Source: Fundidesulfovibrio soli
Lineage (GTDB): Bacteria; Desulfobacterota; Desulfovibrionia; Desulfovibrionales; Desulfovibrionaceae
DNA length: 42,680 bases
Direction: 5' to 3'
NCBI RefSeq assembly: GCF_022808695.1
Contig: NZ_JAKZKW010000029.1
Span: 1 to 42,680, forward strand
The notes under the pieces were generated by a model. That model searched no databases. It was given only the letters and a program-made list of their open reading frames with translations, and had not been told where the DNA came from. The translations under genes and the position numbers were made by a program. Below, in pieces: positions 25,968 to 42,680 of this stretch (positions are counted from its first letter, which is position 1; every line of letters starts with the position of its first letter).

Positions 25968-26043
<76 letters not shown>

Positions 26044-38454: not shown

Positions 38455-40371
<1,917 letters not shown>

Positions 40372-40401
40372 CCGCGCCGACACGACAACAGAAATAGCAA
40401 G

Positions 40402-40432
40402 GCCCGGCCGGGGAAACCCGGCCGGGCTTTTA
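40402..40432 (+). terminator. dnaK terminator; left copy of a 30-bp direct repeat
   Basis: The perfect stem GCCCGGCCGGG / CCCGGCCGGGC with loop GAAA is followed by TTTTATTG. The 30 bases from 40402 to 40431 recur exactly at 42055-42084, on the far side of the AT-rich gene. Confidence 0.95.
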
Positions 40433-40447
40433 TTGCTTTTTCGTCCG

Positions 40448-40475
40448 TTGATGGCTTAATACCTTAAGCTATCAT
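40448..40475 (+). promoter_or_regulatory. Promoter of the AT-rich gene, spacer filled by an inverted repeat
   Basis: TTGATG (40448-40453) and TATCAT (40470-40475, five of six matches to TATAAT) are 16 bases apart. The spacer is exactly GCTTAATACCTTAAGC, a perfect 6-bp inverted repeat around TACC. A repressor bound there would cover both promoter boxes. The start codon is 58 bases further on. Confidence 0.6.
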
Positions 40476-40533
40476 GATTACTTCTGGCCGCTGATTTTCC
40501 ATTTCCGGCTATCCAAAGGAGCCTCAAACCATT

Positions 40534-41988
40534 ATGAAAAAGAAAATCCTTACCGTCGAATGTGAATTAGCCTCGGACGACACTGTGTTCGTTGATTTTC
40601 AATCAAAAAGCTCTCTTCTGGACTGGGACATAATCATATTCAAACCTGCAATACATTCATTTTTATATTCGCATACAAACGAACAATACCAAGGGAAACC
40701 TTGCCTTAGTGATAGCAATTCTGTTCGCCTGAAAGAATGCTGTGAGCATTGGCGTAGAGAAATAAAACAAGCCGTCGAAAGTGGAAAAACTGTCGTTGTT
40801 TACGCCTCTGAATTGTCAGAGGTATATGTTGACACAGGGCAACGAACATTCTCTGGCACCGGAAGAAATAAAACAACAACGAGACTTGTCTCTATCATGA
40901 ACAACTACCAATCTATTCCCGCAAATATAAGCCCAATACAAACATGTGGGAGCTCAATCAAAACTACCCCAAAATATGCGGAGATTCTTAAGCCTTACTG
41001 GGAACAATTTGAATCTCTCTCACAATACAAAGTAATATTTAGCGGCGAATCTGTCCCTGCATGTCTAGCTACTCGAGTTGGAGACAAAGCAGTAGGAGCA
41101 CTCTACAAGAGTAAAATGTCAAACGGATCATTATTGGTTCTGCCGGATGTAAATTTTTCGCAAGACGATTTCCTCGAAGAAATAGAAAACAAAGACGGCA
41201 GCATTGACGAATGCTGGTCAGACAAAGCTACAGCATTTGCAAACAGACTAATATCTTGCATAGTGTCCCTTGACAAAGCATTGCGGTGCAACTCAGAAGT
41301 CACGCCGGAACCCACATGGGCAAGTACTCAACACTTTTCAATTGGAGCAGAGAGCGGCCTCCGCTTACAGTTACTAGCTGCGGAGAAAGAAGTTGAGCGA
41401 GTTCAAAATGCTAAGGAACAAATTGTTGAGCAACTTAATTCGATCTGCGCGATGCGCGGCCTATTATTTGAAAAGGGAAAGCCGCTAGAAAACATGATCA
41501 TCGAGGCATTAAACATCATGGGATTTAATGCCTCCCAATACAAAGACTCGACCTCTGAATTTGATGTTGTATTCGAGTCCGATGAAGGGCGACTCATCGG
41601 TGAGGCTGAAGGAAAAGACAACAAACCAATAAATATCGACAAATTCAGGCAACTAACACTCAATATTCATGAAGATTTGCAGCGTGAAGAAGTCACATCC
41701 CCTGCAAAACCCGTTCTATTTGGAAATGGATTTCGATTATTACCACTTCAAGACCGCCCAGACCCCTTCACTGAGAAGTGTCATACTTCTGCACCATCTA
41801 CCAACACAGCTTTATTGTTCACACCAGACCTGTTTTTCGTCACTCAATACCTTTTAGACAATAATGACCGTGATTTTGCATACGCCTGCAGAATAGCAAT
41901 ATTAACAACCACCGGCCGGGTCGTATTCCCGCAACCGCCAGCAAGACGACAGGTTGATTGCGACACTCAGGCAGACACGAGTTCATGA
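40534..41988 (+). CDS. AT-rich putative PD-(D/E)XK nuclease, likely acquired defence gene
   Basis: The 484-residue protein is not a family I can name. Its N-terminal half looks like an alpha/beta domain (WDIIIFKPAIHSFL near 31, VESGKTVVVYASEL near 82). A coiled coil follows (about 275-305, LLAAEKEVERVQNAKEQIVE), then a restriction-nuclease-like domain: GKPLENMIIEALNIMGF (near 314), SEFDVVFES (near 340) and LIGEAEGKDNK (near 353). Asp342 with E-x-E-G-K would form the PD-(D/E)XK site. PVLFGNGFRL and LLFTPDLFFVTQYL follow. Base and codon use are far more AT-rich than in any neighbour. AAAGGAG precedes the ATG. The gene sits alone between two identical terminators. A phage-defence role is inference. 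Confidence 0.78.
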   Translation: MKKKILTVECELASDDTVFVDFQSKSSLLDWDIIIFKPAIHSFLYSHTNEQYQGKPCLSDSNSVRLKECCEHWRREIKQAVESGKTVVVYASELSEVYVDTGQRTFSGTGRNKTTTRLVSIMNNYQSIPANISPIQTCGSSIKTTPKYAEILKPYWEQFESLSQYKVIFSGESVPACLATRVGDKAVGALYKSKMSNGSLLVLPDVNFSQDDFLEEIENKDGSIDECWSDKATAFANRLISCIVSLDKALRCNSEVTPEPTWASTQHFSIGAESGLRLQLLAAEKEVERVQNAKEQIVEQLNSICAMRGLLFEKGKPLENMIIEALNIMGFNASQYKDSTSEFDVVFESDEGRLIGEAEGKDNKPINIDKFRQLTLNIHEDLQREEVTSPAKPVLFGNGFRLLPLQDRPDPFTEKCHTSAPSTNTALLFTPDLFFVTQYLLDNNDRDFAYACRIAILTTTGRVVFPQPPARRQVDCDTQADTSS

Positions 41989-42054
41989 CTTGTAGCCCTG
42001 TACGAGAATTTCGGCATAATTACATCACCAGGGAACAACTTCTCTAAAGGGAAA

Positions 42055-42087
42055 GCCCGGCCGGGGAAACCCGGCCGGGCTTTTTTT
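42055..42087 (+). terminator. Second copy of the dnaK terminator (right direct repeat)
   Basis: The same GCCCGGCCGGG / CCCGGCCGGGC hairpin with GAAA loop, here followed by seven T residues. It ends the AT-rich gene's transcript. Identity with 40402-40431 covers 30 bases including the first four T; the flanks differ. Confidence 0.95.
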
Positions 42088-42113
42088 GTGGGAGAAAACG
42101 AAGTGTTTAAGAT

Positions 42114-42165
42114 GCCTCCGGCGGCCAAAGGGACCAGTCCCTTTGGAATCCCCTATCGCTTCGCG
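42114..42165 (+). repeat. REP-like palindromic element, copy C
   Basis: It begins GCCTCCGGCGGCCAAAGGG, has the hairpin CCAAAGGGAC-CA-GTCCCTTTGG, and ends ATCGCTTCGCG. It is the third copy of the element found at 91-142 and 178-230, about 42 kb away. Confidence 0.65.
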
Positions 42166-42189
42166 CCGGTCGCGGGAACGTTCCGCCGA

Positions 42190-42498
42190 TCAGTAGGTGT
42201 TTTCCAGGCAGACCCAGCCGAACTGTTTGGTGCCCGGCACTTCAACATAGGCCCAGCCCTCGCCGTCGTTCCACCAGACATTGAGCGTCTGATTGTGCGC
42301 AAGCTTCATGACCACGCCGCTGGTGGTGCCCTGCCCGTCGCGCAGGGGCAGGTCGGTGAAGCCGGCGTGCACGACCTTGCCCGTGTTGGAGCCGATCATG
42401 GCGGGCTCAACGTACAGGGCTGCGGCCGGAAATGCGTAAAGGACCGTCGCCATGATGGCGCACACCGCCCCAACCATCCATTTGCGCTTGCGATTCAT
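42190..42498 (-). CDS. Small secreted SH3-like domain protein
   Basis: The 102-residue precursor has a basic start and signal peptide (NRKRKWMVGAVCAIMATVLY, then AFPAAA). The mature 75 residues resemble a bacterial SH3 domain: LPLRDGQGTTSGVVMKLAHN, LNVWWNDGEGWAYVEVPG and FGWVCLENTY, the usual 'LR..P...S.V...L..G..V.V....GWA.V' pattern with a closing GWV. Such domains bind cell-wall peptides or act as small periplasmic adaptors. AAGGAG precedes the ATG. It is a lone gene with its own promoter. Confidence 0.85.
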   Translation of the reverse strand: MNRKRKWMVGAVCAIMATVLYAFPAAALYVEPAMIGSNTGKVVHAGFTDLPLRDGQGTTSGVVMKLAHNQTLNVWWNDGEGWAYVEVPGTKQFGWVCLENTY

Positions 42499-42610
42499 GA
42501 GGTTCTCCTTGAGTTTAGAGTTGAGGCCGCAGCGCGGCGCATGACGCGCCGGTCAATCAGCCTTGCACCCCTCGCAACAGCGACGGCGGGAAAGAGGGAT
42601 CAACTCCAAT

Positions 42611-42639
42611 TCTATACGGAATGCACGCGGGATGGGCAA
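42611..42639 (-). promoter_or_regulatory. Candidate promoter of the SH3-like gene
   Basis: On the minus strand TTGCCC (42634-42639) and TATAGA (42611-42616) are 17 bases apart. Transcription would start near 42604, giving a leader of about 105 bases that contains a GGCGCGTCATGCGCC palindrome near 42536. Confidence 0.5.
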
Positions 42640-42680
42640 GAAGCTTGTGAGGCCGTCGCGGGGGGACGGGGGGACGGGGG

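Follow-up and report, generated by a model that had tools for sequence, protein, structure and literature searches.

A single foreign gene between two copies of the dnaK terminator in Fundidesulfovibrio soli

Single foreign genes often occur in genomes without a mobility gene, and the route by which they are acquired is of interest. The window analyzed here is the whole of contig NZ_JAKZKW010000029.1 (42,680 nucleotides) from the Fundidesulfovibrio soli assembly GCF_022808695.1, in which one such gene lies downstream of the heat-shock gene dnaK between two identical copies of a rho-independent terminator. How did the gene arrive, and why does a dnaK terminator stand on either side of it? The reading to which we give a probability of about 0.5 is that the foreign gene was captured at the dnaK terminator hairpin in an event that duplicated the hairpin. 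This site can be read in its empty and its filled state, together with the duplicated terminator, and so offers a testable route of acquisition. The source genome (G000, 4.0 Mb) was compared with six congeners (G001-G006), with a panel of 59 relatives that includes the source genome itself, and with wider draws of 297 genomes from the order and 347 from the class (source genome included).

The dnaK terminator and its second copy

The dnaK terminator (left copy, T1; 40402..40431, plus strand; stem 40399-40430) and the right copy (T2; 42055..42084, plus strand) were located by repeat match and folding. A preliminary description of the window had reported identical 30-bp terminators around a gene of clearly different base composition, and both observations hold. 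T1 and T2 are identical at 30/30 positions and at 35/37 over a wider interval (40399-40435 and 42052-42088), with 1,653 bp from start to start. The exact repeat covers the entire hairpin and four T residues. T1 folds with 14 pairs at -32 kcal/mol and T2 with 15 pairs at -33.7 kcal/mol; for each copy 0/200 shuffled sequences folded as well, and a T run follows. The minus strand of T2 also forms a hairpin (-30.9), which faces a convergent gene for an SH3-domain-like protein. GC content drops from ~0.65 to 0.40-0.45 between the copies, where a single open reading frame (ORF) occupies most of the interval. The gene has a GC content of 0.43 compared to 0.68 in the remaining window and looks foreign by this measure.

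The hairpin is not a common terminator, a possibility that the preliminary description had asked to be checked. Within the source genome, exact copies of the 26-bp hairpin core occur at T1 and T2 only, and a third place has 3 mismatches. Hairpins of the form GCCCGGCC-N3-14-GGCCGGGC number 8 genome-wide (reversed control pattern, 3), and the six besides T1 and T2 differ inside. With up to 1 mismatch allowed, the core was found among the 297 order genomes only in G000, with 2 copies, and in its sister species G001, with 1, and the exact core is absent from the viral contigs searched. The common-terminator reading was rejected because the core is unique in its own genome and near-unique in the order. 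Since the core is confined, as searched, to the dnaK terminator of this lineage, T2 is taken as a copy of it; judging by this distribution, the second copy more likely derives from the lineage's own dnaK terminator than from that of a distant donor.

The same searches bear on the idea that the gene brought its own terminator, matching that of dnaK by chance or common style, and landed by short homology on the matching pair. Hairpins of the type AAGCCCGG...CCGGGCTT are indeed recurrent, at 5-9 per genome in 7 genomes of the genus (reversed control, 0), and an AAA flank particular to T2 extends its stem. Congener G003 carries two similar yet different terminators at the same spot, which also speaks for such convergence. 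The exact core is nonetheless found in G000 and G001 alone and in no viral contig. A 39-base search of plasmids matched 21 records. Identity is 83-93% in the 15 matches listed, and one record outside this list lies in the 95-99% band. Convergence is very unlikely on these grounds.

Exact duplication of a terminator around a foreign gene is rare here. A scan for exact repeats of at least 16 bp spaced 300-8,000 bp apart covered 947 kb of source and congener sequence (~4 kb counted twice) and returned 103 repeats, of which 8 (at least 18 bp) contain a hairpin. Besides T1/T2, these are paralogue pairs (porin-like in G003, another in G005), dispersed repeats, and one short match. The G003 pair (G003:C29 ~18.0-20.3 kb, partly N; L111, L112) consists of tandem porin-like paralogues with an identical 38-bp terminator, which is ordinary gene duplication that included the terminator. 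Tandem gene duplication was rejected for the window because dnaK and the ORF enclosed by the hairpins are unrelated, unlike the members of the G003 porin-like pair.

The empty site in a sister species

The preliminary description had predicted a relative with one terminator and no gene, and G001, the closest relative compared (DnaK 99%), has this arrangement: dnaK, one terminator, a dispersed repeat, and the same downstream SH3 gene, with no inserted gene. On the dnaK side, G001 and the window are 97.1% identical over 1,938 bp. On the right side, the alignment starts from the first base of T2 with 82.6% identity over 650 columns, rising to 87.2% in the best 540 bp. Immediately left of its hairpin, G001 matches the T1 side at 34/40 positions and the T2 side at 13/40. 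Ungapped, the 40 bp to the right match the sequence after T1 at 6/40 and after T2 at 14/40; small indels keep the latter count low. A single copy in the same gene order is also seen in G005, whose hairpin is a variant of its own. The segment missing in G001 (40432..42054, plus strand) is 1,623 bp long, or 1,653 bp with one copy of the terminator, and has a GC content of ~0.43; its ends are ambiguous within the 30-bp repeat.

Whether the gene was gained by F. soli or lost by its relatives was judged from its distribution. The inserted gene was found in 1/59 relatives, its own genome, and is missing from the other 58, so the gene is not a regular neighbor of dnaK that diverged in place, the case that would have told against insertion. 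In the class sample it is present in 2/347 genomes, the source and G075, where the sequence around the gene is the same as that of Desulfonatronospira locus L038. Because the gene is this rare, its loss in both G001 and G005 is less likely than insertion. A clean loss in these two species is the less likely alternative, and comparison of the sites indicates that a 1,653-bp unit most likely entered at the dnaK terminator and left the terminator duplicated.

The right flank also speaks to the quality of the assembly. The contig terminates ~600 bp past T2 in a G-rich simple run (42660-42680), a setting in which a 30-bp repeat might be an assembly artifact. The sequence after T2 is the dnaK neighbor in the sister species, and assembly k-mers are usually longer than 30 bp. 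An artifact is highly improbable. A dispersed palindromic repeat (CCTCCGGCGGCC...CCC) lies at 42113..42155, with boundaries drawn by eye and no strand assigned. In G001, G005, and G006 (L068, L070, L073) it follows the single terminator at a short distance, and it is likely the ancestral right flank. The SH3-domain-like small protein is encoded at 42190..42498 on the minus strand (SH3_3, E 0.00028, below the curated cut-off), and its gene is next to dnaK in the empty sites of G001 and G005. Both convergent genes retain a terminator, which suggests why the insertion would harm neither neighbor.

Routes of capture at the hairpin

In the favored reading, one foreign gene, together with the region upstream of it, would have been captured at the hairpin between dnaK and the convergent SH3 gene. 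Capture would duplicate the whole hairpin, such that the left one stays with dnaK and the right one serves both the newcomer and the SH3 gene. A break at the hairpin itself may provoke the event, and the foreign DNA would then be joined between two terminator copies that come from sister chromosomes or from a close relative, all without a dedicated integrase. That the duplicated stretch corresponds to the hairpin is in keeping with capture there. Afterward, ordinary recombination between the 30-bp repeats could allow the unit to exit or come back. Homologous exchange through the hairpin, one route of entry offered in the preliminary description, is a conjecture.

The duplication appears to belong to the site or the event rather than to the gene. 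Relatives of the inserted protein are encoded at 33 loci in named genomes (best segments 37-63% identical), and the flanks of 29 of these were surveyed for up to 5 kb on each side or to the contig end, with 4 partial loci left out. No exact repeat of at least 14 bp was present at 21 loci. The other 8 have repeats of 14-18 bp, those of L046 being attC-like, with stems of at most 5 pairs compared to 11 in the window. When imperfect repeats were sought within 800 bp, a single longer pair emerged (L065, 25/28). It has no terminator-like stem, and both of its members lie in open frames that read as an identical short peptide. None of the 29 loci examined has a comparable flanking repeat, a result that led us to reject terminator duplication as a constant trait of the gene family.

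The spot after dnaK is variable within the genus, as the preliminary description had supposed for strains. G001 and G005 have the SH3 gene, G004 a 246-amino-acid ORF, and G006 (L073:14514-15257) a Gp49-like protein (PF05973, E 0.001, below the cut-off) with another small ORF, the two perhaps forming a toxin-antitoxin pair. G003 has a gene for a 416-amino-acid PEP-CTERM protein without a counterpart in the 58 other relatives at E 1e-20. The flanks of G003 and G006 are 92-95% identical and diverge right after the terminator. Minimal mobile elements likewise bring varied cargo into the space between two conserved genes; they are not known to involve a duplicated terminator. The differing cargo raises the possibility that flanking homologous exchange imported the locus from a congener that already had terminator, gene, and terminator after dnaK, the duplication having occurred there. 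Conservation of dnaK and parts of the right flank in several congeners would make such exchange easy. The gene is present in 0/6 congeners compared, and import merely moves the original event elsewhere. We regard it as rather unlikely.

G003 is a second, weaker case of the arrangement. Its orphan gene lies between the dnaK hairpin and a related right hairpin that is alike at 26/32 bases, so the earlier expectation of other cargo between two copies is borne out for the cargo and not for the identity of the copies. In ~214 kb of G003 sequence (parts N), the dnaK hairpin has no further match with 8 or fewer mismatches. Its genome contains 9 AAGCCCGG...CCGGGCTT hairpins, two of which form the dnaK-locus pair, 1.7 kb apart. 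The exact-repeat scan needs 16 exact bases and is blind to imperfect pairs such as this one, and the dnaK loci were surveyed separately (51/58 examined; 43 with a recognized terminator kept, 8 dropped). The best second copy within 4 kb has 1 mismatch in 30 in G000, 6 in G003, and 9-14 in the other 41. These counts make recurrence of the arrangement plausible, short of proving it.

A site-specific element mobilized in trans is a further candidate. Here the 30-bp hairpin would be an attachment (att) site, and a 1,653-bp circle would have been integrated by a tyrosine recombinase encoded elsewhere. Such elements are recognized by identical end repeats with one copy at the empty site, and the locus has both. 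The source genome has 13 matches to PF00589 (12 above the cut-off), and homologues of the inserted protein adjoin tyrosine recombinases on an Enterobacter plasmid and in L064. The core site of a tyrosine recombinase, with two 9-11-bp inverted arms and a 4-8-bp spacer, resembles the hairpin, but this geometry is common to any strong terminator. The insert holds one ORF only, not the integrase expected of a site-specific element. PF00589 is absent from the contig and from within ~50 kb of dnaK in G001-G006, as far as the contigs reach; the nearest match on the congener dnaK contigs is ~52 kb away, in G004. Confinement of the core to this locus and its G001 counterpart, among the order genomes and viral contigs, means that no element with such an att site was found. 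This route is unlikely.

Several points weigh against capture at the hairpin. The molecular route of hairpin duplication is one that we infer. No other foreign gene lies between exactly duplicated terminators in the 947 kb, which leaves a single clean case. The right hairpin of G003 differs at 6/32 positions, four of them in one block, and it contains an unpaired position. Instead of a decayed copy, it may be a similar terminator that belonged to the cargo; given the block and the unpaired position, a cargo-borne terminator fits G003 as well. The source contig, which stops ~600 bp past T2, has no PF00589 recombinase, in a search that did not extend to the families of serine recombinases and transposases. 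Mobility genes further to the right are out of view.

The locus shares features with known systems, although a literature search for acquired genes flanked by duplicated terminators found no relevant work. One gene at the wzy locus of Salmonella Typhimurium excises and returns between two perfect direct repeats and leaves a one-repeat empty site, much like the arrangement here (PMC12074656). The authors report no matching recombinase site and discuss RecA recombination, with an integrase as a possibility, and the minimal length for RecA/RecBC recombination is quoted as 23-27 bp, so that 30-bp repeats would suffice (PMC12074656). The difference is that the repeat in F. soli is a transcription terminator hairpin, known from sequence alone. 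Group IIC introns are also mobile DNA that targets terminator hairpin motifs; they insert at intrinsic terminator hairpins and in a smaller fraction at attC sites (PMC4424553). A group II intron was rejected for the window, where Rfam gave 0 matches at gathering scores over 39000-42680 and the ORF of the insert encodes no reverse transcriptase. Group IIC insertion is not known to leave a target duplication.

Other mobile units were considered and rejected. Neither an insertion sequence nor transposon ends are indicated, because the one ORF of the insert has no transposase match and the only inverted repeats at the insert ends are the hairpins themselves; IS66 is touched by 1/29 homologues at E 0.076, which is noise. 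A tRNA-linked island was rejected because the sole tRNA of the window is at 25968-26043. A wider idea follows from capture at the hairpin, namely that strong terminator hairpins are recurrent landing sites where insertion copies the hairpin, creating a self-terminating unit of gene plus terminator whose repeats permit exit, an analogue of the integron cassette without its own integrase. We hold this generalization to be doubtful.

The inserted gene and its relatives

The inserted gene (40534..41988, plus strand) encodes a 484-amino-acid protein with a predicted C-terminal PD-(D/E)xK nuclease domain, a prediction drawn from the ORF, an alignment, and a structural model. D344, E357, E359, K361, and Q373 are invariant in 29/29 aligned sequences; D344, E359, and K361 were picked out by eye as what we take to be the PD-(D/E)xK motif residues. 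The model has a mean predicted local distance difference test score (pLDDT) of 89.9 and a predicted template modeling score (pTM) of 0.56. Its top Foldseek matches include FokI, AF1548, VC1899, HindIII, and McrC (probability 0.95-1.00, E 0.004-0.05) at low template modeling scores. The protein is accordingly predicted to place D...ExK in the restriction-endonuclease-like alpha/beta fold that characterizes PD-(D/E)xK enzymes, and it is probably a DNA-cutting enzyme. Based on the fold and the neighbors of its homologues, it is most likely a stand-alone nuclease of the anti-phage or anti-plasmid type.

Some results point away from this assignment. The best Foldseek E value is 0.0042 and none is at or below 0.001. 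Amidotransferase-like proteins (lin1909, CPS1) are also among the matches, presumably scoring through the N-terminal part. A profile search of solved structures gave 0 matches to the protein, and PADLOC (2023) gave 0 families at E 1, so the protein is not part of a recognized defense system there. PADLOC matched 2 of 10 proteins encoded next to homologues (SoFic and a ThsA/SIR2-like protein) and only these. Pfam searches of 20 neighbor proteins identified some of mobile or defense type (Fic, SIR2, KAP NTPase, phage integrase), while others are housekeeping proteins (semialdehyde dehydrogenase, sodium/hydrogen exchanger, SSB). The homologues thus keep mobile-defense company in part.

The inserted gene opens a predicted nuclease-like family that is broadly transferred, with members beside attC-like sites, in viral contigs, and on plasmids. 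Homologue hosts include Proteobacteria, Planctomycetes, Chloroflexi, archaea, and others. The family has nothing above the cut-off in Pfam and 0 matches in PHROGs and NCBIfam. Judged from these sequence searches, it is a widely transferred family without a name in the databases searched. Viral contigs in IMG/VR contribute 7 loci, one of which (L153) adjoins phage replication gene A; the phage records searched contain no homologue of the inserted protein. Enterobacter plasmids with a homologue account for 7 records. On one of these, from Enterobacter hormaechei (NZ_CP103495.1, L088), a 46% homologue adjoins a tyrosine recombinase, and the homologue in L064 is near one.

An integron gene cassette is one gene and one hairpin that move as a unit, and the inserted gene with its terminator resembles such a unit. 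At L046 (L046:3900-8700), the homologue lies within an attC-like repeat array and looks like an integron gene cassette; we take the surrounding cassettes to be toxin-antitoxin-like from their sequences. Sites like attC are also found beside homologues in L061 and L043 (by pattern) and in L038/L090 (by eye, as for L046), where we likewise presume from the sequence that the gene upstream of the homologue is TIR-like. The gene in the window differs in having no attC-like site and a hairpin that is the host's terminator. GTT is the attC core. A cassette at the window gene was rejected because the attC pattern was negative and the 66 bases from the stop codon to T2 lack GTT; the pattern is insensitive, having also missed the by-eye sites at L046 and L038/L090, and a stricter first pattern matched nowhere.

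Upstream of the gene, a weak promoter-like site (TTGATG-16-TATCAT, 40448..40475, plus strand) matches the consensus at 9/12 positions, and 4 such sites occur in the scanned stretch compared to 1.4 expected. The dnaK gene (38455..40371, plus strand) encodes 638 amino acids, and a DnaK match is present in 58/59 genomes searched. It is the last gene of an hrcA-grpE-dnaK-like order, in which hrcA and grpE are names that we presume from the translations of the preceding ORFs. The CCTCCGGCGGCC repeat recurs elsewhere, with a similar stretch ~10 kb away in G001. Right of the SH3 gene, G005 (L070) runs ~5 kb longer than G001 before the two share sequence again, and the wider region after dnaK is variable as well.
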